Source: Candidatus Gastranaerophilales bacterium (GTDB lineage: Bacteria > Cyanobacteriota > Vampirovibrionia > Gastranaerophilales > Gastranaerophilaceae). Taken from it: a DNA stretch of 64,000 bases. Of this stretch, positions 2,892-23,080 are shown in pieces. The notes below the pieces were generated by a model. The model had not been told where the DNA came from and searched no databases. It saw only the letters and a program-made list of their open reading frames with translations. The stretch is taken from NCBI GenBank assembly GCA_947625495.1, contig CANQOQ010000007.1, positions 1 through 64,000 on the forward strand, read 5' to 3'. The position numbers and the translations under genes are program-made. Positions within the stretch are counted from its first letter, which is position 1, and each line of letters begins with the position of its first letter.

Positions 2892-3785
2892 TTAATCAAA
2901 CAATGACAAACATTTGTCTTTAATATCAAGAGCAATGTCACGCGCTTGTTTTTCTTTTATTCCGATATTTTTAGCTACTGCTAAAATATCCTCTAAACTT
3001 GGATTTTTTCCTTCACAGTTTATTGTTGTTGCGTGTTCTCCGTTAAATGATGAACTGTAAGTCAAATCGTATGCTGGGGACAAGTGCCATTCTTTTCTAT
3101 TTTCGTCATAAAGAAAAGAGAAATTCTTTGAATGATCATCTCTGTTGTGCGCAAAAACATTAAAGCACATCAATCTGTACAATTGCTCAATATCTTGATA
3201 ATTTTTCGTTAATTCGAGAGTCAATTTCATCAAAATATTGTAATCAAGATTCGGCAAGCGATGGCTTGTTTCTAATAGTCCGCTAACTGAAACCATATGT
3301 ACTTTTTTACCGTTTTCTCTATCAAATCGTTTTATACCGAAATATCCCGAACAAATTTTAGAATCAAAAAGTTTTGTTTTACTCATTTTTATCCCGCAAT
3401 CTTTTGCGACAAGAGAGTATTTGTATTCCTGCTCTCCAATATTTTTTGGATCTTGGGAAGATGGGAATTTAATTATCCAATCTTCTCCATTTATTTTTGT
3501 CAAAATTTTTGGTCTTGCACCGCCTGATGAACCGCCGAGTTTAAAAAGTTCATCCAAATTATCAGAATTTTGCGATTCTAATATTTTCGAACATTCTTGT
3601 GCAAGTTTATCATAATCAGACTCTTGGTTAGGTGTTTCAAACTTATGCTCAGGTTGATAAGTTAATGCACCCATACCGCTTTGTTGAACAACAGCAAGAC
3701 GGTTTAAATTATCAATTTCACTTGGGTTGATATTGTTTTTTAGCAAAAGACGATCAACAAGCAATCTTCCCCAGCCATCCGACAA
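2892..3785 (-). CDS. HipA-family kinase, N-terminally truncated (probable remnant)
   Basis: The product matches the C-terminal kinase part of HipA: LGGSSGGARPK (glycine-rich loop region), DWIIKFPSS (ATP-binding Lys), FNVFAHNRDDHSKNF (catalytic loop with Asp) and LSPAYDLTYS (metal-binding Asp). HipA kinases inactivate glutamyl-tRNA synthetase or related targets in type II toxin-antitoxin systems. The frame runs upstream to a stop at 3831-3833 and still reads like HipA there (PFDGLFGVFNDS), but the first subdomain of about 100 residues is missing and the only start available is TTG at 3785 without a ribosome binding site. No HipB-like gene is adjacent. I read it as a 5'-truncated, probably inactive toxin gene. 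Confidence 0.75.
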   Translation of the reverse strand: MSDGWGRLLVDRLLLKNNINPSEIDNLNRLAVVQQSGMGALTYQPEHKFETPNQESDYDKLAQECSKILESQNSDNLDELFKLGGSSGGARPKILTKINGEDWIIKFPSSQDPKNIGEQEYKYSLVAKDCGIKMSKTKLFDSKICSGYFGIKRFDRENGKKVHMVSVSGLLETSHRLPNLDYNILMKLTLELTKNYQDIEQLYRLMCFNVFAHNRDDHSKNFSFLYDENRKEWHLSPAYDLTYSSSFNGEHATTINCEGKNPSLEDILAVAKNIGIKEKQARDIALDIKDKCLSLFD

Positions 3786-5034: not shown

Positions 5035-5384
5035 TGGAAATTTTAGATAAACTTGCAAAATCAAAATTCAGGAGCAGATTTAAACTCCGGACAAAAGAAC
5101 TTGAATATATTAAGGACAAAGGTCTTGATACTATTTATTCTCATGCCTGCGATTTTATCAGGGATAGAGTAGCTCCCTCTGAACCTGTGAACGACGGCAA
5201 ACAAACCCCAATGCGAGGCCACCCTGTTTTTATCGCTCAACACGCAACCGCCACCTGCTGCAGAGGCTGCATCGAAAAATGGCACAAGTTTCCTAAAGGC
5301 AGAGAACTGACATCAACCGAACAAGAGTATCTTGTTTCCGTCATTATGAAATGGATAAATCAACAAATTATTATAAATCAATGA
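5034..5384 (+). CDS. DUF4186 family protein
   Basis: About 116 residues starting at MEILDKLAKSKFRSRF. The sequence carries the family hallmarks: SKFRSRF, IxSHAxDFI, NDGKQTPMRGHP, VFIAQHATATCCRGC with a CCxxC cluster, and KWHKFPKGREL. The Cys/His content suggests metal binding (inference); the molecular function of DUF4186 is not known to me. I chose ATG 5034 because it overlaps the preceding stop (TAATG) and matches the usual family start; the frame is open to 5004. It converges with and overlaps the RES gene by 7 bp. Confidence 0.85.
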   Translation: MEILDKLAKSKFRSRFKLRTKELEYIKDKGLDTIYSHACDFIRDRVAPSEPVNDGKQTPMRGHPVFIAQHATATCCRGCIEKWHKFPKGRELTSTEQEYLVSVIMKWINQQIIINQ

Positions 5385-6337
5385 ATTACTTTATATTGTT
5401 CAATTTTAAAATTTTTGTTTTGGACAATATACACATTACTGTTTAAAATTTCAAAAGTTGCAAATTCTTTATCACAATCGTATTCTATACATTTATTTTC
5501 AAATATAAGAATATTTTCCCCTTTTGTATATAAAGAAGAAGGATAGATGATACCGTCATAACCCAAGTTTTCAATATACTTACTGATTTTTTGAGTTGGT
5601 TTGTAATATTCATAATCACTATAATTCGGTAATGAACACATTTGCGCAATATAATGAAATGTTAAATATTTTGAGGGATTTTCAACTTTAAAAGTATCAA
5701 ATATTTTTGTAAAATTATATAGCTTTAGAGGCTTTAATATTTTAATTTCGGCTACACTAATATTTTGCCCATTTATTGGACGTATTTCGGCAACAGCAGT
5801 TTTTATATTACTAGCAACATATAGACAATGTTGCTTTTTTGTATTTAATCGTCCCTCTTTATTTTTACTAGAATAGTTTACACCGCTATTTGCTTTATCA
5901 AATCCCCAAAATTTAACATCTTGATAATCAGAACACCATTCATTGTAAATATCTTTTATTTCATTGTAATTTGATAAAAATGGTAAATAATTAAAAAATG
6001 TTTTAATATCCGAATATGCAAAATTAAATTTTTCTAATGGAATTTTTGCTTTTAGTCTTTTATATAAATCTTGCCATGGCTTTGTATTAAACAAATCATC
6101 AAATTCTGAATTTTTAAATCCTCTAGCTCTATAAACTATTTTATTTGGCTTTAGATAATATGTGCATTTTTTCTGAAATTCTTTAATAATTTTAAAAATT
6201 TCATTGTTTTTGCTTGAACTATTACATAGGGTATCCCAATACTCTTGAGTTTCATTGTTAATATGTATCCATATTAGACCTATAGCATTAATATAATCAT
6301 AATCGTTTTTAGAGGAATTTTTTATTTGCTTTTTCAT
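5378..6337 (-). CDS. RES-domain protein (NAD-consuming toxin type)
   Basis: 319 residues. The C-terminal two thirds show the RES signature: VYRARGF (Arg), GRLNTKKQHCLYVASNI, TAVAEIRP (Glu), and LGYDGIIYPSSLYTKGENILIF (Ser, Asn). RES toxins of RES-Xre modules degrade NAD+ and stop growth. The N-terminal 60 residues are an extra helical part. No Xre/MbcA-type antitoxin gene is next to it: the upstream neighbours on the same strand are small proteins without an HTH. It is therefore an orphan or uses an unfamiliar antitoxin. No strong ribosome binding site is visible before ATG 6337. Confidence 0.75.
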   Translation of the reverse strand: MKKQIKNSSKNDYDYINAIGLIWIHINNETQEYWDTLCNSSSKNNEIFKIIKEFQKKCTYYLKPNKIVYRARGFKNSEFDDLFNTKPWQDLYKRLKAKIPLEKFNFAYSDIKTFFNYLPFLSNYNEIKDIYNEWCSDYQDVKFWGFDKANSGVNYSSKNKEGRLNTKKQHCLYVASNIKTAVAEIRPINGQNISVAEIKILKPLKLYNFTKIFDTFKVENPSKYLTFHYIAQMCSLPNYSDYEYYKPTQKISKYIENLGYDGIIYPSSLYTKGENILIFENKCIEYDCDKEFATFEILNSNVYIVQNKNFKIEQYKVIH

Positions 6338-7912: not shown

Positions 7913-9757
7913 TTATATCAACGAGAGAATGCTTTCATCACCGCAAATATTTCTCACCTTTATTCTTAACGGCTTTTTGTCGGATTTGATTTTACCGTTC
8001 CAAAATTCTTTTGTCTTATTGCCGTTAATTATTACATAAGAGGTCTTGCCGTCTATTTTGATTTCACTATCACTATGCCATACCCCGTCTGTATTGGTAC
8101 AATCAAGTGAAACATACTCTATTGTGTCTAATCCGTTTTCACTTATTGTAATCGGTGTGTATTTCTTGTCAGCACCCTTTAGTGATTGTGCATACTTTTT
8201 TGCATTGTATTCATCAATTCTTTGTATAACTCTGTCGCTTACAAACTTATTGATTGTTATCTGATATTCTTTGAATATCTTTTCTTGAATTTCTTCTAAC
8301 TTGTAGTCAATAACATCTTCAACAACAACATCATCAAGAAGTTCCTTTAAATCCCGTAGTTCAATTTCAATATTTGTTGAATCATCTTCTTCAATAAACT
8401 TCTTAATCTCATCAATGTCAGTAATATCAATATAATATACAATGACTTTTTTTACACCTGCTGGTAAATCAGGGATTGCCTTATGTATGATTTCATTCAT
8501 CATTGGTTTATCAAGCAATTTAGTTGTGCTGTCCATCAAATTAGGAGTATAGACAGGAATCATACCGTCTTTCGAATCTTGAATAGCACCTTCCCAATAT
8601 TCATCAAGTGAATCTTCATTTTTTAATCCCTGTATTATAGACTTCATTTTTTCCATTGTCTGAACAGGATTTCTATATAATGATACTCCATCTTTTATTT
8701 CTCTAACAGTAAATTCTGCCTTATCTGCTACTAATCTATCTCTTGCGGTTTGAATACTATTGACACCAATATCGCAATGTATAAATTTTCTACCTAATTT
8801 ATTCGCAGCTGCGGCAGTTACACCACTCCCACCAAAGAAATCTGCCACAAGCATATTCTCGCAAGAACTTGCTTTTATAATTCTTTCAAGTAAAGCTTCA
8901 GGTTTTTGCGTTGCATAATCGGTATTTTGAATAGAATTTCCCTGTACTGCAAAAATATCTGACCATACATCTCCGGGATTTTTCCCCTTTTCTTCAAGAG
9001 CATCGGCATCTACTGATTGATATCTTGCTTCTCCTCTATGAGCACGAGCAATAGTTTCTGGACTATATTCTGTGCGAACAGAATCTAAATCGAAATATGT
9101 ATCATCAGATTTACTATAAAAATAAATTGTTTGATGTTTTCTACCAAAGGCACTATTTGTACTTGCACCTTTTATATAATGCCAAATAATTTCATTTTTG
9201 AAATTATTTTCGCCAAAAATTTCATCCATAAGGATTTTTACATAGTGTCCTATATTATAATCTAATTGAACATAAATTGATGCTGTTTCAGACATTATAC
9301 TTTTAATTGCCATTAAGTTTTCATACATCCAATTTAAGTAATCTTCTTTATTCCACACATCTCCATACATTTTTTCTTCAAATGCTTTGAGTTCTTCTAT
9401 ATCAAGTTCCTGTTCGGCTTTTGCGATTGCCTCTGCAACTTGTGGGTTTTTCCTGATATAAACCTTTTTAGCGTAATCAGCACCACTTGCAAACGGTGGG
9501 TCAATATATACCAAATTAACCTTTATATTATTATCTTTTAGGTATGCACAAGCCGATAAACATTCACCTCTGATAATCATATTATCTAGGTTATCACCGA
9601 CAATCTCTGTTGTTTCAACTTCATATAGAGGCATACCTCTTTTGAGTTTGTCTTTTACATCCAAATTGCCTTTATACTTCAATGTTCTTGAAAAATTATC
9701 AAGTATTGCTTGTCCTTCAATCGGTTCAGGGAAATAAGGTATATATTTAATAGCCAT
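7913..9757 (-). CDS. Type III-like DNA methyltransferase (Mod)
   Basis: 614 residues. Catalytic motif IV DPPF at residues 86-89 (NLVYIDPPFASGADY) precedes the AdoMet motif ADFFGGSG at about 304-310, the order of beta-class amino-methyltransferases such as type III Mod and PF01555 proteins. The C-terminal 200 residues would hold target recognition and Res contacts. It probably methylates adenine N6 (or cytosine N4) in a short asymmetric site. Its ATG overlaps the Res stop (TAATG), with AAGGAG inside the Res end, so the two are made from one message. Res-first order is less usual than mod-res. Confidence 0.9.
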   Translation of the reverse strand: MAIKYIPYFPEPIEGQAILDNFSRTLKYKGNLDVKDKLKRGMPLYEVETTEIVGDNLDNMIIRGECLSACAYLKDNNIKVNLVYIDPPFASGADYAKKVYIRKNPQVAEAIAKAEQELDIEELKAFEEKMYGDVWNKEDYLNWMYENLMAIKSIMSETASIYVQLDYNIGHYVKILMDEIFGENNFKNEIIWHYIKGASTNSAFGRKHQTIYFYSKSDDTYFDLDSVRTEYSPETIARAHRGEARYQSVDADALEEKGKNPGDVWSDIFAVQGNSIQNTDYATQKPEALLERIIKASSCENMLVADFFGGSGVTAAAANKLGRKFIHCDIGVNSIQTARDRLVADKAEFTVREIKDGVSLYRNPVQTMEKMKSIIQGLKNEDSLDEYWEGAIQDSKDGMIPVYTPNLMDSTTKLLDKPMMNEIIHKAIPDLPAGVKKVIVYYIDITDIDEIKKFIEEDDSTNIEIELRDLKELLDDVVVEDVIDYKLEEIQEKIFKEYQITINKFVSDRVIQRIDEYNAKKYAQSLKGADKKYTPITISENGLDTIEYVSLDCTNTDGVWHSDSEIKIDGKTSYVIINGNKTKEFWNGKIKSDKKPLRIKVRNICGDESILSLI

Positions 9758-12630
9758 TATTCATTCTCCTTAAAAAATTTTTTTATTTTATCGCTTGTCA
9801 AAGTGATTAAATCGTTATCGTTCATATCATCTTGTAAGTACAAGAAATCAAAGCGGTTATATCCAAACTCTTTATTATTTTGAGGGATAAAATCGTTTTC
9901 CATAAATTCTTTTTTCTCTTTGAAATTCTTTGCAAAACCTTCACCTTTGGTTTCAACTATCATAATTTTATGAATCTGATTGTTTTTTCTTTTGATAATC
10001 AAAAAGTCTGGTGTATAAATTCCCATATACTTCCAGTTATTCTTAGTTCCATTGTATGTTTTAATCTTAAATTCGGTTAAGACTTCATCCCCGTTGTAAT
10101 AAACCTCTAAGTCGCTTTCCTCAAACGCATTAAGAGTTAATATTTTATTCAAGAATAATTGTTCAAAAGAACTGTCCGTCTTGTATGGTAGATAGTGATA
10201 TGTTTTGTCTTTGTCGGTATTTGATTTAAACTTATCTTCGATCTCTTGTGCTTGTTGTTCTAAGCCATTTGCACGCAAAGTTTTTATTGTTTGTTGCATT
10301 TCCTCTGATAAAGTAAGTTTGCCTTCATCTTCTTTAATTATCGATTCAACTTTATCCTGTGTTGGTATGAAATCTTCGGGCTTTGAAGTTTCTATAGGAG
10401 ATATAAGTTTTTCAATAACTAACAGATTTACATTGTCTTTGATAGTTTCTTCTTTTGTATTAAAACTTCTTTTATCGAAAAATGCCTTTCTGATATTTGC
10501 TTCTATTTGCGTTACATTAAATTTAGAGCTGAAATACCTTGCTTCATTACTAATGTAGGTGATTTTATTAAATACAGACTTTAAATCTTGCTCGTATTTA
10601 TACAAATCTTTCAAGGTAATATTATTAAAACTTCCTTTTGAGATTCTATGTAACCATAGGTTAAAATTAGCAATCTGCCTTCCCATTTCCTTTGCCGTAT
10701 CATGTTCTATATATTCACCTGTTACAATATCCCAAGTCTTTATTATTCCTTTATACTCTTGTCCTTCTATTGAATTTTTAATAGATTCAGATATATTTGC
10801 TTTTTCAACTACTAATGTTTCATATTGAACGGATAACTGATAATATTCAATTGGCGGTAAATTTTTCTTATCCATTCGGTTATATCTATTTATTGATACT
10901 TTTGCCTTTTGAGTTCCTTGTTCAAACTCTTTAATATCAATATGGTGTTGTTTTTGTAATTGCATATTTAACTTATCTGCATTACCTTCATTCAAATATA
11001 TCAATGCTGATTCTGTTTTGTTTTTATCAACCTGCCTTAAACATCTGCATGAAGTTTGTAATACCATATTTACTGGGCAATCACCCTCTTGCGATAAAAT
11101 AACACCTGTTAAACTCTTACAATCCCAGCCCTCTTTACCGATTTGAACTAATAAAATAATTTTCTTCTTAGATATTGATTTGTCAAGTGTATCAAATTCT
11201 AATTGGGCGTTTTGTGGTTCTGTATATTTGTTATTCCCTTTGTGAAATTTCAATACAACTTCATCAGGATTCAGTCTGTAATCATTCAGAATTTCACAAA
11301 TTTTGGGGTATATAACTTCTTCTAAATTCTCTATCGTACCGCAATAAATACCTAATTTAGCGATAGTATTATCAGCATATTTTGTATTATTATACTTATC
11401 TAAAAATTCTCTTACACCGTTTTCTACAATCTCTAAACGGTTTCTGCTATTAGATATTTTTACTATCGGTTTTTTAAGGAAATTACCTATACCGTCAATT
11501 AACGGATAATAATATACAATATTAGAAATTTCCTTGTTCTCTGTTTTAAGATCATCCGTTATTTCTATCTTCTCGGATTTTTCAAGGTATGGTGTACCAG
11601 AAAAACCAATAACGGAATTAACCGTTTCATTCTGTGTCCAAGTGTTTACAACACTTCTTAATTTGATTTCATCACTTACTGCGTGGTGAACTTCATCAAT
11701 GAATATTGATAAACTCGGAATTTCTCCTATTAAATTTCTTAATTCATTTGCCGCACGATATTTTGCTTGTTCATCTTCGGAAAGCAAAAGCATTTGGTCG
11801 TCATCTTTTTTATCAACACGGTCAAGAATAACTTTTTCTGCATTGGTTACGGCTATTAAACCAAATAATTCGGATAACGGCTGGTGAATAGCAATCTTCT
11901 GAACATTCGGATTCTTAATCTTATTGCTTTTCTTGTCTGTTTTTGATTGGTCTAAAACCTCAAACTTAATCATTCGTTTGATTTCTGTTGCCGACGGTTC
12001 AGGAATCACCCATGAGGGATTAAATTTCTGTATAGTTCTTAAACTCGGAATTACAGAACTCTTTAATCCTGACGGTGCAAATATTATAAAATTGTGAGCA
12101 AAAGACTTATTGTTTGGTTCGTTCAATGCAAAGTACAAATCCAAGTACATGAAACAAGCCATTAAGAAAGTTTTTCCAGCACCCATTGGTAAACTAAATA
12201 AATAGTCCGTGTAATCAACATTGTAGAAAATATTTTGAAAAGCTAGCTTATAATCAATATTGTCGTAATTCTCTTTGATTTCTTTTTCAAGTTTTTTTGA
12301 TATTTGTTCACCTTTATCGTTTTTGGTTACTGCGTATTGATAAAGCGATAAAGCATATGGGTTCGTAATAAAATAATCTTTTAATTGTTGCTTTATTTCT
12401 AAATCTTCAACTTTTAAGGTATTAAAAGCACCCTCGTAAAATAATTTCCACAAGGGTATGTTCTGGCATTTTATCTTTAAAAACAAATATGTCTTGATTG
12501 CATCAATTTGTGCATCTCTTAGTTCATTTGTTTCTACAATATAGTTTATCAGTTCTTTTACAGTACAATCTTGAGAACTATACCACTCATCTCTTTTGTT
12601 TTGAATAATTGAATAAAACAACTTGTACAC
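9757..12630 (-). CDS. Type III-like restriction enzyme helicase-nuclease (Res)
   Basis: 957 residues. SF2 helicase motifs in order: MGAGKT (Walker A, about 149-156), DEVHH (about 311), SGTPY (about 342) and GKEGWDC...QTSCRCLRQVD (motifs V-VI, about 500-530). The C-terminus has a PD-(D/E)XK nuclease core: PDFLII (about 874) and ETKGEG (about 892). This is the Res layout: ATP-driven motor plus endonuclease. The start is GTG 12630 (TTG four codons on is an alternative). With the adjoining Mod it forms a complete restriction-modification pair, divergent from the ATPase cassette across 122 bp. Confidence 0.9.
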   Translation of the reverse strand: MYKLFYSIIQNKRDEWYSSQDCTVKELINYIVETNELRDAQIDAIKTYLFLKIKCQNIPLWKLFYEGAFNTLKVEDLEIKQQLKDYFITNPYALSLYQYAVTKNDKGEQISKKLEKEIKENYDNIDYKLAFQNIFYNVDYTDYLFSLPMGAGKTFLMACFMYLDLYFALNEPNNKSFAHNFIIFAPSGLKSSVIPSLRTIQKFNPSWVIPEPSATEIKRMIKFEVLDQSKTDKKSNKIKNPNVQKIAIHQPLSELFGLIAVTNAEKVILDRVDKKDDDQMLLLSEDEQAKYRAANELRNLIGEIPSLSIFIDEVHHAVSDEIKLRSVVNTWTQNETVNSVIGFSGTPYLEKSEKIEITDDLKTENKEISNIVYYYPLIDGIGNFLKKPIVKISNSRNRLEIVENGVREFLDKYNNTKYADNTIAKLGIYCGTIENLEEVIYPKICEILNDYRLNPDEVVLKFHKGNNKYTEPQNAQLEFDTLDKSISKKKIILLVQIGKEGWDCKSLTGVILSQEGDCPVNMVLQTSCRCLRQVDKNKTESALIYLNEGNADKLNMQLQKQHHIDIKEFEQGTQKAKVSINRYNRMDKKNLPPIEYYQLSVQYETLVVEKANISESIKNSIEGQEYKGIIKTWDIVTGEYIEHDTAKEMGRQIANFNLWLHRISKGSFNNITLKDLYKYEQDLKSVFNKITYISNEARYFSSKFNVTQIEANIRKAFFDKRSFNTKEETIKDNVNLLVIEKLISPIETSKPEDFIPTQDKVESIIKEDEGKLTLSEEMQQTIKTLRANGLEQQAQEIEDKFKSNTDKDKTYHYLPYKTDSSFEQLFLNKILTLNAFEESDLEVYYNGDEVLTEFKIKTYNGTKNNWKYMGIYTPDFLIIKRKNNQIHKIMIVETKGEGFAKNFKEKKEFMENDFIPQNNKEFGYNRFDFLYLQDDMNDNDLITLTSDKIKKFFKENE

Positions 12631-12752
12631 CTATCTTGTATTCTAAATTTATACTACCATAAAAATAGATATAAAGTTATATAAAGATGCCATTTATATT
12701 GCATTTTTGTAGTAGAATAATTGTAGACTTAAAAGAATAGTGGAGTAGTTAT

Positions 12753-14693
12753 ATGAATTTCCCTAAAATACATAAAATTAATATATCTAATTTTTCATTG
12801 TACAAGCAAAAAGATGAGATAGAATTAAATCTAAAAGATGGTGTTTTTTGTTTAGCAGGTGCAAATGGTTTAGGGAAGTCAACATTTATTGCAATTGTAT
12901 CATATGCTCTTATGGGAATTGTTGTTGATCCAAAGAAAAATTTTGATTCTATTAATCAAATTACAGAATTTTACAAAAAAAATGAAAAATTTGCAGAAAC
13001 TTATTTTGACGGAAGAATTGATGAATCAAAAAGAAATTTGGCTAATGTTAGTATTGAGTTTTCTGTTGGAGATTTTTTATATAATTTAAAACGAAATTTT
13101 TTTGAAATAACCAATTTATTAGAATTTTCAAGAAAAAACAAAATTACAAATGAAGAAACTGTTGATAACAATAGTACTTCTACAGAATTATTGGAGCTTT
13201 ATAAAAAACATCTTACCAAAGATATTGGAGTTGCTACCTTTGAACAATTTGCATTTTTACAATCATTTGTATTAACTTTTGATGAAAGTAAAAAACTTAT
13301 CTTTTGGGATACACCAGTCATGAATAGAATATTACATTTATTTTTTGGTATAGATCCTGAATATGCAAATAGAGCTGATGATTTAAGGAAGAAGATAGCC
13401 AAACACGAATCCAACTTGCGTAATATTCAGTGGAATATTACGCAAAATGAAAGAGAAATTGTAGAGATAACAAATCCATTATTGCTAGATATCAGTGTTG
13501 CTGATGCTGAAATTTTGATAAACACAATAAAGGAAGATGAAAATTCAGTAGAAGAACTCCAAAAAAATATTGAAAAACAAGATTCAGCTATTAGTGAATG
13601 TGACTTAAATATAAAAAATCTCGCAATAAAAATAGTTGAACTGAATGCAAAATATGAGGAAGTTTTTAAATCATTAGAAAATTCTGAAATATTAATAGAA
13701 AAAGATTCCACTATAATCGCTTTATTAAGAAAAATCAGTTATAAAATTTTAAATAAGGAAGAAATAACTAATGAATTTGAAGATTTGAAAACAAGAATAG
13801 TAGAAGTTAGCAAAATATTAGATAAACATTGTCAAGAAGAAAGGATGATAGAATTAAAAAATATTGATGATGAAATTATAATTTCCAGAAAACAACAAGA
13901 AGAATATATTGCTAAGAAAAATCGTGTTGAAAAAGAAATAACTGAAAATAAAAAAATATTAGAAGACTTAAAAATTAAACTAAATAATTTAAAATATAAA
14001 AATGAAAAAATTATAAAACAGTATGATTTATATATCTCTGCTAATACAGATGATCGTATAAATTCTATCAAAAAAGTGGTAGAAAATGATAAAATAAGAA
14101 AAATAGAAGAAGGTAAATTAAGAGATAAATACAAAGAAGAATTATCAATATTGGAAAAGGATATGCGTACTCAATATCATAAGACAGAACTTGAGTTTAT
14201 TCCAATATTTAAAAAATATGCTACAAATTTTTTAGGCCTGGATATTGATATCGAATTGAAAAATACTGCAAGTACAGGTCTTTACTTGAGCTTAAAAGTT
14301 AATAGTACCGAAAGAAAAGATAAACATCAATTGTCTGAAAGTCAACAATATTTTATTGATATTGCTCTAAGATTTGCGTTGATAGAAATAAGTGCATCAA
14401 AATATGCAACAATATTTATAGATACACCTGAAGGTTCTCTTGATATTGCATATGAAAGCCGTGCAGGGAAAATGTTTGGAGATTTTGTTAAACAAGGGTT
14501 TGACATTATAATGACTGCCAATATAAATTCTTCTCAATTACTATTACAGCTTGCAAAAAAATGTTCTCAAGAAAAAATGAATCTTGAACGTATGACAGAA
14601 TGGACAATATTGTCTACAGTTCAACAGGAAGAACAGAACGTAATAGAAAAAGCATTCAATGATATTGAAGGAGCATTAAATGGTACAAACTAA
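12753..14693 (+). CDS. SMC/Rad50-like ABC ATPase of a four-gene cassette
   Basis: 646 residues. Walker A GANGLGKST at about 36-44, coiled coil across roughly 200-470, ABC signature LSESQ at about 527 and Walker B TIFIDTPEGSLD at about 552-563. The last motif resembles the IDTPxGxLD form of DndD and related defence ATPases rather than chromosome-maintenance SMC proteins. The coiled coil is short and lacks a visible zinc hook (no CxxC). It likely binds DNA and controls the partner nuclease with ATP (inference). GGAG lies before ATG 12753; the gene overlaps the next by 14 bp. Strongly AT-rich codon use. Confidence 0.85.
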   Translation: MNFPKIHKINISNFSLYKQKDEIELNLKDGVFCLAGANGLGKSTFIAIVSYALMGIVVDPKKNFDSINQITEFYKKNEKFAETYFDGRIDESKRNLANVSIEFSVGDFLYNLKRNFFEITNLLEFSRKNKITNEETVDNNSTSTELLELYKKHLTKDIGVATFEQFAFLQSFVLTFDESKKLIFWDTPVMNRILHLFFGIDPEYANRADDLRKKIAKHESNLRNIQWNITQNEREIVEITNPLLLDISVADAEILINTIKEDENSVEELQKNIEKQDSAISECDLNIKNLAIKIVELNAKYEEVFKSLENSEILIEKDSTIIALLRKISYKILNKEEITNEFEDLKTRIVEVSKILDKHCQEERMIELKNIDDEIIISRKQQEEYIAKKNRVEKEITENKKILEDLKIKLNNLKYKNEKIIKQYDLYISANTDDRINSIKKVVENDKIRKIEEGKLRDKYKEELSILEKDMRTQYHKTELEFIPIFKKYATNFLGLDIDIELKNTASTGLYLSLKVNSTERKDKHQLSESQQYFIDIALRFALIEISASKYATIFIDTPEGSLDIAYESRAGKMFGDFVKQGFDIIMTANINSSQLLLQLAKKCSQEKMNLERMTEWTILSTVQQEEQNVIEKAFNDIEGALNGTN

Positions 14694-15294
14694 CTCTACT
14701 GCTATATATGATACTCTTCTAATAGCCAAAATTTTGGTACAGTATAACAAGGATTTCAATTTTTCAGAAATTAATCTATTCTGTTATTTCGCTTGTTTGT
14801 TATCATTATACAATGGTCAACCTTTGTCATATTGGGGCTACAACTTTATAAAAAATGAATTCGGAGTACCAATATCAGCTGAAGTACAAATATCTGTTCA
14901 GCGATTAATTGAATTAGGACATTTGGCGAATACGTCTCCTGGATACTACAATATCACAGAAAAAGGTATAAATTTTTTAGATACGTTGAATTATATCCAA
15001 AGATATCAAGAACGTAGAAATTATATTGAAAATGCTTGTAACACATTGTTAGTAAATTCTATAGGACATATTAGACAAATTATTAATCAAGATCCTGTTA
15101 TATCAACAGTAAAAGAATCACCTTTAAGAGTATTGTTGAACGAAACATCTGGAACGACAGAACTTTTGTATAAACAATTCACAATATTAAAAAGTGCAAT
15201 TAAATGCGATATCGACAAGGATTTATTTATCGTTGCTTTATCTTGGTTAAAATGTGTACAAAATATTGAGGAATTTGGATATGTATACAAGTAA
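14680..15294 (+). CDS. Winged-helix-like middle component of the ATPase cassette
   Basis: 204 residues with AAGGAG before ATG 14680, inside the end of the ATPase gene. The N-terminal 100 residues look like a winged helix: helices (NLFCYFACLLSLYN, EVQISVQRLIELGHL) followed by a TSPGYYNITEKGINFL wing. The C-terminus is helical. It resembles in size and position the small middle components of ABC three-component (ABC-3C) conflict systems, or kleisin-associated winged-helix partners of SMC proteins, but I cannot assign a family. It probably bridges ATPase and nuclease (inference). Overlaps the nuclease gene by 14 bp. Confidence 0.65.
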   Translation: MVQTNSTAIYDTLLIAKILVQYNKDFNFSEINLFCYFACLLSLYNGQPLSYWGYNFIKNEFGVPISAEVQISVQRLIELGHLANTSPGYYNITEKGINFLDTLNYIQRYQERRNYIENACNTLLVNSIGHIRQIINQDPVISTVKESPLRVLLNETSGTTELLYKQFTILKSAIKCDIDKDLFIVALSWLKCVQNIEEFGYVYK

Positions 15295-16345
15295 TCAAGA
15301 AATAGATGCAGCTGTTAAATTGTTATCTGATGACTTTGCAATGAATATATATAAATGTTATGGGATTGAAATTTCTGCTTGCTTTAAAAGTGTGCTTCAG
15401 GGAATTCCTCATATTTTAAAGAATTTAGATCTAAATAAATATAAATCGATAAGAATTTTAAAATGCGATCTTGAGGATATAGATAATATAAGCTTGCTAA
15501 CTAATATTACCAATTATTCGCATTTATCAAATTTTATAAAGCCTTATATGCTTATCTATATTGTTAATACAAGTAATATATATATTTATTCTTCTGATGA
15601 TTTATATGATATAAATAATTTATTAGAAAAAACTTTTGTTTATGAGTATCATAATTGCCAAGACATTTTTCACACTAAAGAAAATAGCTATATAATTCCC
15701 AATTTATCTGGTGGAGAAAGTGTTTTTACTATATCTACATATAAAGACCTTGATGAAGCTCTTATGCAATATAAAACAGCAGTAGTTGACTGTGTAACTT
15801 GTCCTTTTATACAAAACTCTATATTTGATCCAAACCGCATATTTTTTAAGAGAAAACCAGAACATTATTTAAGAGATTCTTTAAATTATTATTTGAATGC
15901 TAGATTAAGAGGTGATAATATAGAAATTAGGCCAGAACAGATAATTGATACATCGCATCCTGTTGATATTAAAATAACTTGGGGAAATACAAATCATCTT
16001 GCCTTAATAGAAATAAAATGGCTTGGACAATCAATAAATGAAGAAACATTAGATTTAACTACAGGATATACAGAATCAAGGGCAAGGGATGGGGCTAAAC
16101 AATTAGCAGATTATCTTGATGGAAATAAGTTACAAGTTCCAAATCATAATACAAAAGGATACCTAGTAGTTTATGATTTAAGACGTAAGAATATAAACAA
16201 AGATACCAGATGTATTAACAAAGAAAATGGGCTATATTATAGAGATATGGATATTAGCTATGCCCCTAACTATGAAGCAATTAGAGATGATTTTCACAAA
16301 CCATTCAGATTTTTTATAGAACCGAGGTGTGAAGATGCATCTTAA
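15281..16345 (+). CDS. PD-(D/E)XK nuclease of the ATPase cassette
   Basis: 354 residues from ATG 15281 (GAGG nine bases upstream; the longer frame from GTG 15254 lacks support). The C-terminal half carries a restriction-type nuclease core: SHPVDIKITW with Asp229, then ALIEIKWLGQS with Glu244 and Lys246, followed by GAKQLADYLDG and GYLVVYDLRRK, which fit the later strands and helix of the fold. The N-terminal half is unassigned and could sense DNA or the ATPase. Overlaps genes on both sides (14 bp and 11 bp). The pairing with a methyltransferase suggests it cuts DNA that lacks the mark. Confidence 0.75.
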   Translation: MYTSNQEIDAAVKLLSDDFAMNIYKCYGIEISACFKSVLQGIPHILKNLDLNKYKSIRILKCDLEDIDNISLLTNITNYSHLSNFIKPYMLIYIVNTSNIYIYSSDDLYDINNLLEKTFVYEYHNCQDIFHTKENSYIIPNLSGGESVFTISTYKDLDEALMQYKTAVVDCVTCPFIQNSIFDPNRIFFKRKPEHYLRDSLNYYLNARLRGDNIEIRPEQIIDTSHPVDIKITWGNTNHLALIEIKWLGQSINEETLDLTTGYTESRARDGAKQLADYLDGNKLQVPNHNTKGYLVVYDLRRKNINKDTRCINKENGLYYRDMDISYAPNYEAIRDDFHKPFRFFIEPRCEDAS

Positions 16346-17594
16346 TGAAGAATTTTTATTAAAAGATCAAAATGTATCTACCGCAGGAGATACAATATCA
16401 TTGCCGAGACACCGCTGGTACTATTATAAAGAGGGGTTCTCACCATCATTAGTAAAAAAAGCTATTGAGATGTTGTCATTAGAAGAGAATGACTTAATTA
16501 TAGATCCATTTAATGGAAGTGGAACTGTAACCTTAACTTGTTCGGAAAATAATGTTAAATCTATTGGTCTAGAAGTCAATCCCTTTACGGCATTTATTGC
16601 AAAAACTAAAGTAAAATCAGCAAAAATTAAACAATTTGATAATGATGTTAAGTTTATAATTGAAAAAGTCCACAAACCCAAAACTTCTCCTTTACAAAAT
16701 TTTTCAACATTTACAGAATTCTCTGGTAAAACCAAATGGCTATTTAATTCTGAGGTCTTAAATTCATACTACGCAGGATTATCAAATTTAGATAATATTA
16801 AAAATGAAAATACTAAGGCTCTCATTAAATTGGCTTTAATACGTGCAATAATGGAAAATTCAAATGTTAGGCGTGATGGTAAATGTTTACGTTATCGTAA
16901 TAATTGGCAAGATTTACATTATAATAAGGAAACATATTTAGAGTCATTGGAAAAAAGATTGTGCATTATAAGAGAAGATCTTAATTGCGAAAATAAATTA
17001 AAAATTCCAAAAATAATATGTGGTGATTCTAGAAAAATATTATCGAAGAGTATGAAAGAAAAATTTTCCCTATGTATTACATCTCCACCTTATCTTAATA
17101 CATTTGATTATACTGATATATATCGACCAGAATTATTTTTAGGTGGTTTTGTGAATTCCATGGAAGAACTGTATAAGTTAAGATTAAATACTATAAGGTC
17201 ACATATACAAGCAAAATGGGAAAAACCAATAATTAATGATTTTGGTACAATGTATGCAACTGCAATATCAGAGATTTTAAAAAGGCAAGATCAACTCATG
17301 CATTGTAATATTCCTATGATGATACAAGCATATTTTGAAGATATGAGTAATATTTTAAAAATGCTAAGAAATAATGCAAAAGATAATGCAGAATTATGGT
17401 TAGTGGTTTCAACATCTGCATATGCAGGGATTGAAATCCCTGTGGACATGATTATTGGTGAAATTGGTAATAAAGTTGGTTGGGCACTTAAAGAAATTGG
17501 CGTATTGAGGCATATACGAAAAAGAAAAACAAAATATAGTAAAGAGATTGATCATTTAAGAGAGAGTGTTGTTATATTTACTGCATCAAAATAA
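16335..17594 (+). CDS. DNA methyltransferase of the ATPase cassette
   Basis: 419 residues from ATG 16335 (GAGG seven bases upstream, inside the nuclease gene end). Motif I DPFNGSGT at residues 57-64 with IGLEVNP following, then catalytic SPPY at 250-253 (CITSPPYLNTFDYTD). Motif I precedes motif IV, the opposite of the Mod protein at 7913-9757, so the two enzymes are of different classes. It likely makes N6-adenine or N4-cytosine marks. Last gene of the overlapping cassette. It could mark self-DNA against the nuclease at 15281-16345 or have its own site. It ends 20 bp before the convergent recombinase gene. Confidence 0.85.
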   Translation: MHLNEEFLLKDQNVSTAGDTISLPRHRWYYYKEGFSPSLVKKAIEMLSLEENDLIIDPFNGSGTVTLTCSENNVKSIGLEVNPFTAFIAKTKVKSAKIKQFDNDVKFIIEKVHKPKTSPLQNFSTFTEFSGKTKWLFNSEVLNSYYAGLSNLDNIKNENTKALIKLALIRAIMENSNVRRDGKCLRYRNNWQDLHYNKETYLESLEKRLCIIREDLNCENKLKIPKIICGDSRKILSKSMKEKFSLCITSPPYLNTFDYTDIYRPELFLGGFVNSMEELYKLRLNTIRSHIQAKWEKPIINDFGTMYATAISEILKRQDQLMHCNIPMMIQAYFEDMSNILKMLRNNAKDNAELWLVVSTSAYAGIEIPVDMIIGEIGNKVGWALKEIGVLRHIRKRKTKYSKEIDHLRESVVIFTASK

Positions 17595-17614: not shown

Positions 17615-18154
17615 TTACAAATAAAAATTCATATAACTCTCATCAATAATATCCTGTTCAATGCCGATGTAGCGAAGGGTGATAGCGGAGTAGGAATGGT
17701 TAAAAATCTTCTGCAGAAGTTCAATATTATCAAATTGTTTGTAGTGGTGGTAGCCAAATGTTTTGCGCAGCGAGTGGGTGCCGATTTTGTCCTGAAGATT
17801 TAATGTTTTTGCAGCCTTATTTAAAATTCTGTATGCCTGGTTACGGTCAAGCCTGTTTCCTTGTTGCGTAATAAATAGCGGTTCCTCTTCAGGACGGTCT
17901 TTTACAAAATCTTCAAGCACAACTTTAAGCTCCGGATTTAACGGAAAACGCTTGTTTTTCTTCGTCTTTTTCTCTTTGATTTCGACAAAATCCCTACCCT
18001 TAACATCTCCGACATTAAGTTTCAAAATATCCGAAATCCGGAGTCCGCAATTTATCCCGAAAATAAAAAGCACAAGATCTCGCTTTTTGCGTTTCAAGAC
18101 CGCCTTCATTTTCTCAATATCCTCTCTATTCCTTATCGGTTGAACAATATTCAT
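17615..18154 (-). CDS. Minimal tyrosine recombinase (catalytic domain only)
   Basis: 179 residues, which is the catalytic domain alone. Active-site residues are complete: Arg39 (GLRISD), Lys in the KTKKNKRFPL hairpin, His127 and Arg130 (THSLRKTFGYHHY), His153 (NHSYS) and Tyr162 (LRYIGIEQD). No N-terminal core-binding domain is present. GGAGGGA precedes ATG 18154, 8 bp after the Xre gene, so both are one operon. Beside a replicative DDE transposase such an enzyme could resolve cointegrates (inference). Base composition is less AT-rich than the cassette to its left. Confidence 0.9.
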   Translation of the reverse strand: MNIVQPIRNREDIEKMKAVLKRKKRDLVLFIFGINCGLRISDILKLNVGDVKGRDFVEIKEKKTKKNKRFPLNPELKVVLEDFVKDRPEEEPLFITQQGNRLDRNQAYRILNKAAKTLNLQDKIGTHSLRKTFGYHHYKQFDNIELLQKIFNHSYSAITLRYIGIEQDIIDESYMNFYL

Positions 18155-18679: not shown

Positions 18680-20650
18680 ATGACCAATAAAGATAAATAC
18701 ATATCAATTCAAGAATTAGCAGACCTTAAAGGCGTGAGCACTCGGGCGATTCGGATGTCGCGAGATAAATATGTCACCCGCGAAATTATTGTCAGAGGCG
18801 GAAAAAGTTTTGAAATTCTTTTATCAAGTATTGAGTTGGATTTACAGGAAAAATATTTTGAGCAAAAGACTCAAATAACTTCGGATTCGACCGCATTGAT
18901 ACCGATTTTGCCTATAAAAAATCTTCCGACTAAAGTTAATGAGATTGCGCTTGCGCGTTTGGATTTGCTTCGCGAGTGGCAAAAATACAGAAAACATCAC
19001 CCTGATGGTAAAACCCGTGCCGGGGTTGAGTTTATTGAAAGCTACAATACCGGCATGTTGTATCCGCATATTTTTAAGGTGCTTGGCAAAACTTCGATTG
19101 GCTCGGTTGAGCGTTGGAAACGAAAGCTTGGAAACACGACAGATTATCATTTATTGCTGCCAAAATATGAGTATGCTACAGAGTTTCGAACGTCCTTGAC
19201 CGATTACGAAAAACAGGTGTTTTTGAAAATTTTGCTGCACCCGAACAAGTTTTGTGTCGGGAAAGCCATTTCGATAACTAAGCACATTTTGTCAAAAGAA
19301 GGGCCGATAAATGTTCAGGATGTGACATTCCGCCGCTACGCAAATTGGTTTCGGGATAACCATTATGACATTTGGACGTTGGCTCGTGATGGCGAAAAGG
19401 CTTTGAAAGATAAGGTTGAACCGTACATTTTACGTGATATTTCAAAACTTGAGGTCGGGGATGTGTTTGTAGCAGACGGGCATAAACTCTCGTTCTTGGT
19501 ACAAAATCCGTTTACCGGCAAACCCACAAGGGCGACTTTAATCGGCTTTTTGGATTGGAAATCGACGGCGCTTGTCGGGTATGAGATTATGCTCGAAGAA
19601 AATACCGAAAGTATAGCCTCTGCCCTTAGAAACGCCATAATCAATTTGCAAAATATCCCAAAAATCGTTTACCAGGATAACGGCAGAGCGTTTAAAGCGA
19701 AGTATTTTGTGAATACAGATTTTAAGGAAACAGGGTTTGAGGGGTTTTATGCTCGGCTTGGGATAAAGACGGTTTTTGCAAAGCCTTATAATGCAAGAGC
19801 AAAGGTCATTGAGCGGTTTTTCAAAGAATTTCAAGAAAGTTTTGAAAAACTTTTGCCAACTTATTCGGGTTCAAGTATTGAAAACAAACCCGCGCATTTT
19901 AAACGCAATGAGAAGTTTCATAAGCAGTATTTCAAGCCAAATTATTACCCGACGATTGATGAAGTTAAAATGCTTGTGGAAAAATGGCTCGAATTTAAAA
20001 ACGCTCAACCTTGTCCGAATGATAAAAGCCAAACGATTGCGGAAGTTTTTGAAAACAGGGTAAAAATCAAAATTGATACGGCTCGGCTTGACGATTTGAT
20101 GATGACGGCTGACATCAAGACGATTTATCAAAACGGTATTAGGTTCCTCGGGACTTTTTATTATTCGGATAAATTGTATGGACTCAAAACTCAGGTTATG
20201 ATTCGCTACTCGCTTTTTGATTTATCTGAGATTAAAGTTTACACAGTCAAAAATCAGTTTTTGTGTACCGCAAAACGCGTAACCAAAGCTCATCCAATGG
20301 CTTATCATCTCGGTGATATCAAAGATGTTGAGGATTTGAAACAGAAAATTCAAAAACAAAAACGGCTTAAAAATAAGACAATTAAAGAGCTGCAGAAATT
20401 CTTGCCGAATGTGGATTTGAAATTTATTGAACAGGATATTGAAGAAGATGTTCAAGAGGTGATTGAGGTTAAACCGGTAAAAACTAAAAAGCCAACACCG
20501 AGAGAGGTGCAGATGAACGCGCCTGTGTTTTTGAATAAGTACGAAAAGTTTGAATGGCTTATGAAAAACGGCTGCACTTGTGAAGATGACAGGGTGTGGC
20601 TAGCTGAATACAAGCAAAGTGAGGAATACCGAGGTCTTTATGAAACGTAA
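18680..20650 (+). CDS. Mu-like DDE transposase
   Basis: 656 residues. N-terminal winged-helix/HTH (YISIQELADLKGVSTRAIRM) like the Mu end-binding domain; a second helical DNA-binding part; then the rve catalytic core with Asp266 (VFVADGHK), Asp333 (VYQDNGRAF) and Glu378 (KVIERFF). The 67-residue spacing of the two Asp equals that of MuA. A Mu-type C-terminal region follows; the tail (about 600-625) is Lys/Pro-rich. It inserts DNA by DDE strand transfer, usually with a MuB partner, here the next gene (11-bp overlap). AGGAG precedes ATG 18680. Base composition is less AT-rich than the neighbours, which fits transfer. Confidence 0.92.
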   Translation: MTNKDKYISIQELADLKGVSTRAIRMSRDKYVTREIIVRGGKSFEILLSSIELDLQEKYFEQKTQITSDSTALIPILPIKNLPTKVNEIALARLDLLREWQKYRKHHPDGKTRAGVEFIESYNTGMLYPHIFKVLGKTSIGSVERWKRKLGNTTDYHLLLPKYEYATEFRTSLTDYEKQVFLKILLHPNKFCVGKAISITKHILSKEGPINVQDVTFRRYANWFRDNHYDIWTLARDGEKALKDKVEPYILRDISKLEVGDVFVADGHKLSFLVQNPFTGKPTRATLIGFLDWKSTALVGYEIMLEENTESIASALRNAIINLQNIPKIVYQDNGRAFKAKYFVNTDFKETGFEGFYARLGIKTVFAKPYNARAKVIERFFKEFQESFEKLLPTYSGSSIENKPAHFKRNEKFHKQYFKPNYYPTIDEVKMLVEKWLEFKNAQPCPNDKSQTIAEVFENRVKIKIDTARLDDLMMTADIKTIYQNGIRFLGTFYYSDKLYGLKTQVMIRYSLFDLSEIKVYTVKNQFLCTAKRVTKAHPMAYHLGDIKDVEDLKQKIQKQKRLKNKTIKELQKFLPNVDLKFIEQDIEEDVQEVIEVKPVKTKKPTPREVQMNAPVFLNKYEKFEWLMKNGCTCEDDRVWLAEYKQSEEYRGLYET

Positions 20651-21329
20651 ATTTGTGATAACGCAGAATGTAAAACGATTTGTGGATTTGATGGATACGC
20701 TAAAAAACGCACCCGAGAATCTGCCCAAGATGGCGCTTGTGTATGGCGATTTCGGACTCGGAAAGTCGCAAACGATTATGTGGTGGGTTACGAATAACGA
20801 TGCGATTTATGTGCGTTGCAACCACAAAATGTCTGCACGTTGGCTTTTGACCGAGATTGTCGAGGAGCTTGATGATGTGCCAACGTACCTGACCTCGCTT
20901 TTATTCAAGCAGATTGAGGATAAACTGCGCGAGCGGCCAAAGGTTTTGGTGGTGGATGAGGTGGATTTTCTTTTGAATAACTCGTCTGCGATTGAGATAG
21001 TCCGCGATTTGCACGACAAAATCGGGATTCCCGTTGTGCTTGTTGGGATGAGTCTTGCGGAAGTAAAACTCAAACGGCATAAGCATATTTATGACAGGCT
21101 TTTGGGTGTTTTGAAGTTTGAAACATTCAATAAAGATGATGTGGCAAAAATTGTGACAGAGATTTCAGAAGTCGAGTTTGAACCTGATGCATTGGAACTT
21201 GTTTGTGCAAAATTTAATCAGTTCAGGCAGATTGTGAAATTTTTAAATAAGGTCGAAAACATTGCCGAGATGAACAATTTGAAAACGATTACGCTGCCGG
21301 TTTTGGAGGGAATTTTAAATGAAAGATAA
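20640..21329 (+). CDS. MuB-like AAA+ transposition ATPase
   Basis: 229 residues from ATG 20640, preceded by GAGG and overlapping the transposase end (a GTG-type start at 20619 is less likely). Walker A GDFGLGKSQT at about 36-45 and Walker B VLVVDEVDF at about 102-110; then LVGMSLAEVKLKRHKHIYDR, a sensor/Arg-finger region. MuB, TniB and TnsC ATPases coat target DNA, activate the transposase and give target immunity. It lacks the N-terminal HTH of phage Mu MuB. Overlaps the next gene by 11 bp. Confidence 0.88.
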   Translation: MKRKFVITQNVKRFVDLMDTLKNAPENLPKMALVYGDFGLGKSQTIMWWVTNNDAIYVRCNHKMSARWLLTEIVEELDDVPTYLTSLLFKQIEDKLRERPKVLVVDEVDFLLNNSSAIEIVRDLHDKIGIPVVLVGMSLAEVKLKRHKHIYDRLLGVLKFETFNKDDVAKIVTEISEVEFEPDALELVCAKFNQFRQIVKFLNKVENIAEMNNLKTITLPVLEGILNER

Positions 21330-21972
21330 AATTTTGAAACTCGCAAAAAGGCTTGAAACATTCAGACTTGAAGATGTTGAATCTATTATGGGCGAGGGGA
21401 TAGAAGATGTTTTACAGGAACTTGTTAAGGACGGGCAGTTGAATTTGGTTGGTGAAATTTATTCATATAAAGCCGAGCGAAATTTACCCCTGCCGTTTTG
21501 TTTCAAATTCCATTCGCAGGAAAAAATTGAGATGATAACAAAGTGTTTTTGTGCCGGGGTGAAATCGAAACAGGCGAGTTTTCTCTTGGATATCGGGGAT
21601 GCGACGATGCAGAATTTTTATAAACATTTTCGGCAGATGATTTATGAACGGCAGTTGAACGCCCTTAAAACGCACTTTGAACAAAATCCGAAAATTGCCA
21701 AGATGCGGAGGTTTTACGATATACCGGTCTATTTTTATCTTTATGATAAAGAGCTTTTCGTAGTCGATAATCCGCTAAAGACAAAAAGAAAGAAACTTCC
21801 GCACACAAAAGAAGAATCTTTGCGGATAAAAGTTCTATACTCCCGCCTCCGCCGATCAATAAACCACTCCCAAATGAAACAAAACCTCGCCCAGCATGTG
21901 GCGGAACATATTTGGAGGTATGGAAGAGGGTATGCAGATATATTTTTATGTTTTGATTATAATCACATGTAA
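21319..21972 (+). CDS. Third transposition-operon protein, HTH-containing
   Basis: 217 residues. N-terminal winged-helix look (LAKRLETFRLEDVESIMGEG, VLQELVKDGQLNLVGEIYSY), then a central segment KIEMITKCFCAGVKSKQASFL that reads as a second HTH of the kind found in IS1-type InsA proteins, and a basic C-terminus. I do not know the family. It is locked between the ATPase gene (11-bp overlap) and the SIR2 gene (TAATG), so it is part of the same message. It could be a target-selection or regulatory factor. Codon use matches the transposase genes rather than the AT-rich SIR2 gene. Confidence 0.7.
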   Translation: MKDKILKLAKRLETFRLEDVESIMGEGIEDVLQELVKDGQLNLVGEIYSYKAERNLPLPFCFKFHSQEKIEMITKCFCAGVKSKQASFLLDIGDATMQNFYKHFRQMIYERQLNALKTHFEQNPKIAKMRRFYDIPVYFYLYDKELFVVDNPLKTKRKKLPHTKEESLRIKVLYSRLRRSINHSQMKQNLAQHVAEHIWRYGRGYADIFLCFDYNHM

Positions 21973-23080
21973 TGATTAATATAGAAGAACAAACAACTAC
22001 AAATACTGTTATATTTTTAGGTGCTGGAATTTCATACGTCGCGGGAGTTCCAATTCAGTCTGAAATACTAAAAACTATATGTAATAATAAAGAAATATTT
22101 TATAGCAACAATGGTAATATTTTTATCAAATTTTTAAAAGATAATTTTGGTTTAAATGAAAATTGTGATAATTTACCTACTATTGAAGAAATATATTTTT
22201 TTTTAGATTTTTTTATAAGCCAGAATGAAAATTTGAATAGTAAATATCCTGTAGAAAAATTAAAAAACATATGGAATATTTTCACACAACTAATTTGTAG
22301 TGTTATTGAAACAGAAGTGTACGTCGGTAATAAAGCAGACAATGCATATAATAAATTTTGGCAGAAATTAGTAGAGTTGAATCATAAAATATCAATTATA
22401 ACAACAAATTATGATTCTTGTTTTTTTGAATCTTTTGATAATTTATATTCGCAAAATTATTTGTTAAATTATAATATTGATTTTGCGAACTACTATGATG
22501 AATATATGAGAGATATTAATTCTTTCTTTTGGTGGGATAAAGCTGAAGAGGGAGTGAATAATACAAAAATAATTGATGTGTATAAATTACACGGTAGTTT
22601 AGAATGGCTATATTGTAGTAATTGTAATAAAGTTATGCATTTACCATTTTTTCACGCAAATTATAATTTAGAAAATGGAGAGTTAAAACAACCACTTATA
22701 TTTAATGAGAAAGGAGAGTCGATACAAAGAATAGCAACATGTCCTGTTGATAAATGCAAGTATCAAATTCTTATCGTTCCACCTACATATAATAAAAATT
22801 TTAATAACAGTATCCTTAAGGATTTATATTTTAAGGCTTTACGGAAATTGAGAATGGCAAAAAATATCATCTTTATAGGGTATTCTTTCCCAGATGCAGA
22901 TTACCATATAAAAGCATTATTCAACAGAGTAAATATGAGCAAAAAAATGTAGTTGTTATTGATAAATTTCTTGATGATTACAAAAAACGTAAATATTTAT
23001 CCATTTGTGGTCATATAAAATTTAAAGAAATTGCTTTTGAAAACTGTATTGATGAATTCACTTCTTATTTATCAGATTAG
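21972..23080 (+). pseudogene. SIR2-family NADase-like gene, frameshifted at an A7 run
   Basis: The first frame (326 residues, to the stop at 22952) has SIR2 motifs: FLGAGIS (about 15-21), TTNYDS (about 145), YKLHGSLEW (about 205), two CxxC pairs (CSNC, CPVDKC) and IGYSFPDADYH (about 303). After AGC AAAAAAA TG at 22938-22949 the sense continues one frame back (NVVVIDKFLDDYKKRK...FTSYLSD) to a stop at 23080. One extra A in the A7 run (22941-22947) restores a 369-residue protein. SIR2 proteins of this kind deplete NAD+ in anti-phage defence. Its ATG overlaps the preceding stop (TAATG). Disruption, phase variation and slippage are all possible. Confidence 0.75.

Follow-up and report, generated by a model that had tools for sequence, protein, structure and literature searches.

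The DNA analysed here, a stretch of 64,000 nucleotides that we call the window, carries at positions 12753-17594 of the plus strand four intact, overlapping genes for an ABC ATPase, a winged-helix (WH) protein, a PD-(D/E)XK nuclease and a methyltransferase (MTase) with an SPPY motif, which constitute a conserved and real module that is apparently still unnamed. We consider it probable that this module is a defence system of the restriction-modification (RM) type. That reading is based on which genes are present and linked, on the conservation of their active sites, on purifying selection and on the exchange of MTases between loci. The occurrence of the cassette beside other RM genes, as well as on Mu-like phages and plasmids, also speaks for it.

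The first gene (12753..14693) encodes a Rad50/SMC-like ABC ATPase of 646 aa (Pfam AAA_23, 8e-8), with the Walker A motif at 12858-12884, SESQ at 14334-14345 and the Walker B/D-loop segment IDTPEGSLD at 14418-14444. It is followed by the gene for the WH middle protein (14680..15294; 204 aa), for which a wHTH domain at about residues 5-112 and a helical C-terminal part were predicted (model pLDDT 89), and by that of the nuclease (15281..16345; 354 aa; model pLDDT 91), with a D229-E244-K246 core encoded at 15965-16018 and a QxxxY motif (Q274, Y278) at 16100-16114. The last gene (16335..17594) specifies a circularly permuted amino-DNA MTase of 419 aa, in which DPFNGSGT (16503-16526) precedes SPPY (17082-17093). 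With ATG starts at 15281 and 16335, which were also the starts used in the first-pass annotation, neighbouring genes share 14, 14 and 11 bp, and the protein lengths are those given above, so that the compact four-gene arrangement proposed there is confirmed. Its motif assignments were recovered as well, both in the ATPase (GANGLGKST at residues 36-44, LSESQ at 527-531 and IDTPEGSLD at 556-564) and in the other two enzymes (D229-x14-E244-x-K246 in the nuclease, DPFNGSGT ahead of SPPY in the MTase). Earlier GTG starts, at 15254 for the nuclease and 16329 for the MTase, would yield proteins of 363 and 421 aa; a GAGG-type sequence is present upstream of each of the two ATG starts. Promoter and terminator scans gave signals at or below chance. 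In comparison with a 58-77% identical relative, dN/dS values were 0.16 for the ATPase, 0.22 for the WH protein, 0.21 for the nuclease and 0.11 for the MTase, which indicates purifying selection on all four genes.

The possibility that this gene set would be restricted to a single genome did not hold, since it was found across many bacterial phyla, in one archaeon and on Mu-like phages. A tblastn search with the window ATPase led to two plasmids, from Burkholderia stagnalis (L004) and Azospirillum brasilense (L005), both with all parts, the ATPase gene of the latter being split over two frames. Searching with an ATPase alignment added three IMG/VR loci (L008, L009 and L011) and 21 genome loci, and profiles made from the first loci detected the WH protein, nuclease and MTase next to the ATPase in nearly all loci (the WH protein of L022 was assigned by position and alignment). 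The three partner genes accompany the ATPase in 25 of 25 untruncated loci found by searching with the ATPase alone, a count that includes one locus (L045, genome G510) from the source organism's own family and leaves out L010 and L021, which are cut by contig ends, and L032, which has a different, longer ATPase. Such recurrence is more than would be expected by chance. In L035 the contig ends after the ATPase and MTase genes. Used as a single query, the window nuclease retrieved almost no relatives. When viral contigs were scanned, or plasmids and phages searched, with one window protein at a time (nuclease or ATPase), the yield was nothing or only two plasmids; the other relatives were reached with alignments.

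The hosts belong to the Bacteroidota, Pseudomonadota, Actinomycetota, Bacillota, WOR-3 and Kiritimatiellota, and include one Methanosarcinaceae archaeon, a range that makes transfer between distant lineages likely. Mobile carriers are the Mu-like phages L009 and L011 and the plasmids L004 and L005. The cassette is rare in the family of the source organism, with a strong ATPase match in three of 383 genomes. When the search was reversed and started from the MTase, the triad of ATPase, WH protein and nuclease was present in eight of nine untruncated viral loci with a close MTase (L053 stops at a contig edge), and absent from all five loci with distant MTases. The exception is a prophage (L057, 7962-13398) in which an MTase of the cassette clade is located beside two unknown genes and one for a KaiC-like ATPase of 849 aa, which may be another set of restriction partners. 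Thus, the cassette MTase clade is tied strongly, but not absolutely, to the triad, and the presence of one clade member with other partners argues against the RM reading.

The sequence of the ATPase suggests a switch rather than a motor. Walker A and SESQ are kept without exception in the 25 aligned ATPases. The position following the acidic residue of Walker B, where ABC ATPases usually have the catalytic glutamate, is occupied by threonine in 20 and by alanine in five of these proteins, which points to slow or no hydrolysis and to a function as a switch or clamp rather than as a translocating motor. The SMC-type motor that was initially proposed is therefore not upheld. A displaced glutamate, E560, is found in 24 of the 25 proteins and could act as a substitute catalytic residue. 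The statement that a zinc hook is missing is correct for the window ATPase, which has lost both CxxC motifs at about residues 330-351, but it does not apply to the family, since 23-24 of the 25 aligned ATPases have two CxxC motifs in the coiled-coil region.

No reliable Pfam match was obtained for the WH protein and the nuclease. PDB sequence searches returned nothing beyond generic Walker A, motif I and designed-protein matches. The WH model, a winged helix with a helical part, was most similar in fold to a chain of 7yk3, the DarTG toxin-antitoxin complex of M. tuberculosis (Z 11.5 over 136 residues), a hint that the fold may restrain effectors; PadR-type regulators also matched, as did, with weak similarity, chain 9uxh_D of a type II Lamassu system (Z 7.3 over 119 residues). 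In the nuclease model, a PD-(D/E)XK domain starts at about residue 151, with residues 151-351 aligning to BamHI, EndoMS, McrC and Can2 at modest Z scores of 7-8, and the N-terminal part of about 150 aa gave no clear match in the fold search. Residues E194, E219, E244, K246, Q274 and Y278 are invariant in 23 of 23 nucleases and D229 is nearly so; we take the conserved QxxxY motif to resemble that of RecB-type nucleases. The MTase was recognized by both Pfam (N6_N4_Mtase, 8.6e-14) and PADLOC (MTase_II, 1.7e-60). Its motifs I and IV are intact, SPPY is invariant (25/25), and its gene is linked to that of a nuclease with an intact predicted catalytic core. In amino-methyltransferases SPPY is a pointer to N4-cytosine methylation, and on this basis the cassette MTase is probably an N4-cytosine (m4C) enzyme.

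In its general design the cassette is similar to Lamassu, ABC-3C and DdmABC, with a coiled-coil ABC ATPase that is Rad50-like and about 650 aa long, a small winged-helix-like middle protein and a PD-(D/E)XK effector, but judged by sequence it is not a member of Lamassu/ABC-3C. An altered catalytic glutamate position is shared with Lamassu, for which an E-to-Q change in LmuB was reported (PMC10586767). The order of the genes is different, ATPase-WH-nuclease in the cassette and effector-middle-ATPase in Lamassu (A-C-B in genuine loci), and the cassette ATPases have SESQ and PExSLD where the LmuB proteins aligned here have GSGxNW and DQP. Furthermore, the MTase is present in all ATPase-led loci, whereas none of this MTase family occurs in the genuine Lamassu loci examined from the source organism's phylum. 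These loci, of which PADLOC clearly detects LmuA, LmuB and LmuC, served as controls. Against LmuB model PDLC03859 the window ATPase scored 41.5 bits, whereas clear LmuB loci reached 230-480 and chromosomal proteins of SMC length 72-80; membership of LmuB, suggested by a PADLOC E value of 2.6e-11, was rejected since after calibration the score falls below this chromosomal SMC background. Profile-profile alignment with LmuB covered a 52-column Walker A region only. The LmuC model matched one of 23 cassette WH proteins, with a best E value of 0.0042 (genuine LmuC, 1e-9 to 1e-52), and the LmuA model none of 23 cassette nucleases (genuine LmuA, 6.5e-28 to 1e-122); the hhalign probabilities were 3% for WH against LmuC and 0.1% for nuclease against LmuA. 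As a separate observation, three LmuACB loci from this phylum (L085, L086 and L090) adjoin a DPPY MTase and a Dam-like MTase that resemble a DpnII-type RM set, with a third gene of that set in L085 and L090.

Other known systems share features with the cassette too. PADLOC convincingly named the MTase only (as a type II methyltransferase), and the proposed mismatch with named defence systems was borne out in that no PADLOC system matched all four genes. Pairing of a DNA MTase with a restriction function is common to type I, II and III RM systems, BREX, DISARM and MADS, but in the cassette the ATPase is Rad50/SMC-like and a helicase, S subunit or Res/HsdR subunit is missing; Pfam and PADLOC detected neither an SF2 helicase restriction subunit of type I/III systems nor BREX signature genes among the four genes. 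Of the MADS models, mad2 and mad3 gave generic matches, and none matched the WH protein or nuclease. The mad3 match, obtained with 25 of 25 members, was rejected because the model recognizes generic ABC proteins and has matches in all 14 control genomes. Like the cassette, Wadjet (JetABCD) has a nuclease and winged-helix partners next to its SMC-like ATPase, but the cassette is devoid of a full-length SMC protein, a kleisin and a TOPRIM-type JetD, and has an MTase. A Zn-hook ABC ATPase is shared with DndD and with the CxC ABC-ATPase/DndE systems (PbeABCD), some loci of which include cytosine-N4 methylases (PMC10853773). In PbeABCD the ATPase is accompanied by DndE, a small disordered protein and a fusion of HKD nuclease and SF2 helicase, instead of a WH protein and a PD-(D/E)XK nuclease with an MTase. 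No account of the four-gene set was found in the literature covered; a survey of conflict-system ABC ATPases from 2020 (Krishnan et al.), which lay outside that scope, may contain an earlier description.

The order ATPase-WH-nuclease is constant in all loci, usually with overlapping genes, but the MTase gene is found downstream on the same strand in 15 loci, convergent in 10, upstream in three and elsewhere, including divergent, in the rest. Sequence comparisons indicate that MTases have been swapped between deeply diverged triads. In the Hylemonella/Diaphorobacter pair (L013 and L027) the MTases are 74% identical, against 19% for the ATPases, 18% for the WH proteins and 16% for the nucleases, and L009 has a window-type MTase (45%) with a distant triad (11-17%). 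The Burkholderia stagnalis plasmid (L004, 1683-11806) has a single MTase flanked by two diverged triads with ATPases that are 25% identical. The deepest split common to the ATPase and nuclease trees separates two triad clades (support 99-100), and the MTase tree groups the loci differently; in AU tests triad clade A was rejected as a group by the MTase data (p = 2.7e-4), and the MTase-I group by the ATPase (9e-45) and nuclease (2e-8) data. Since the trees are quick searches with some long branches, the plain identities should be given more weight. If a restriction enzyme had a fixed target of its own, a change in MTase specificity would not be tolerated; this leaves three options, namely that recognition is provided by the MTase, that the various MTases have a common target, or that restriction is independent of the mark. 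We favour the first of these, as an inference from the exchange, but the exchange may also indicate a triad to which methylation is irrelevant.

If the cassette is an RM-type system, the MTase would methylate a specific sequence in host DNA, probably to m4C, while an ATPase dimer with the WH subunit would bind DNA as an ATP-driven clamp or switch. Where the mark is locally absent, the ATPase/WH assembly would license the PD-(D/E)XK nuclease to cut. The triad would be the fixed restriction core and the MTase an interchangeable module that probably also bears sequence specificity. We infer the formation of a complex, methylation as the self mark, the cutting of invading DNA and a site-reading subunit. 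What the first-pass annotation had put forward, a conserved cassette of restriction-like type that comprises a nuclease and an MTase as a candidate for marking self, is supported, and the putative self-marking by methylation fits the linkage of the MTase.

What Lamassu and other SMC-like relatives sense is not methylation but DNA ends or structures (PMC12904381), and the trigger of the cassette could accordingly differ from missing methylation. The triad might act as a Lamassu-like abortive system that kills the cell on sensing the ends or structures of phage DNA, whether methylated or not, with the MTase protecting some host sites or being auxiliary. The shared three-part logic, the alignment of the WH model to a Lamassu chain and the lost catalytic glutamate, which recalls the substitution in LmuB, are in agreement with this explanation, but an MTase that accompanies the triad in all 25 loci would not be expected if it were auxiliary, an MTase of the cassette family is missing from those genuine Lamassu loci of the same phylum that were examined, and the sequence relation is limited to Walker A; we regard it as rather unlikely. 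The frequent mobile context, on phages and plasmids and with a recombinase beside the window copy, would suit an addiction module of mobile elements, in which dilution of MTase activity upon loss of the element exposes the host to the nuclease, as in some type II systems, and phage defence is secondary. However, RM-type selfishness is compatible with defence, and the window copy resides on the chromosome, in an island with other RM systems alongside. We consider this explanation improbable.

Least probable is a modification-dependent system, where the triad attacks foreign-marked DNA, with the linked MTase as a competitor for sites or a regulator of expression. McrC is among the fold neighbours of the nuclease (Z 8.0) and winged-helix partners are able to read modified DNA, but an adjoining MTase that has a DNA target of its own and an intact active site would put marks on host DNA instead of avoiding them. 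An RM-type function is preferred over these explanations. A more far-reaching proposal, that the cassette represents a separate RM class in bacteria and archaea, is made tentatively, as we consider it possible rather than likely. In such a class the place of the helicase motor or of the site-specific endonuclease would be taken by an ATP-switched Rad50/SMC-like clamp with a WH adaptor, and the MTase would be an exchangeable marking-and-recognition module that gives specificity to unrelated triads. Methylation-based self-marking and SMC-like sensing are treated separately in a 2026 review (PMC12904381); the cassette would join these two branches of bacterial immunity. The exchange of MTases between distant triads makes it testable whether the MTase gives restriction its target recognition.

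The surroundings of the window copy are a chromosomal defence island with exchangeable RM systems, of which the four-gene cassette is the constant part. Type III mod/res genes (7913..12630, minus strand) are divergent from the cassette and form a separate, exchangeable neighbour outside the system. At the corresponding place L045 has type I hsdMSR genes (8828-15100), with homologous flanks on both sides; the cassette, the recombinase and the flank are common to both. The recombinase, a tyrosine recombinase at 17615..18154 on the minus strand, adjoins the cassette, as does its homologue in L045. Further downstream, at 18680-22952, genes for a Mu-type transposase (rve/Mu-transpos_C), a TniB-like ATPase, a small unknown protein and a SIR2_2 protein, which together resemble a Tn7/Tn5053-type element with SIR2 cargo, are followed by tRNA-Asn and tRNA-Thr. 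Near the island, genes for HipA-like and RES-domain proteins of the toxin-antitoxin type occur at 2892-3785 and 5378-6337, and in L045 DNA matching the HipA-like gene is also found next to the recombinase.
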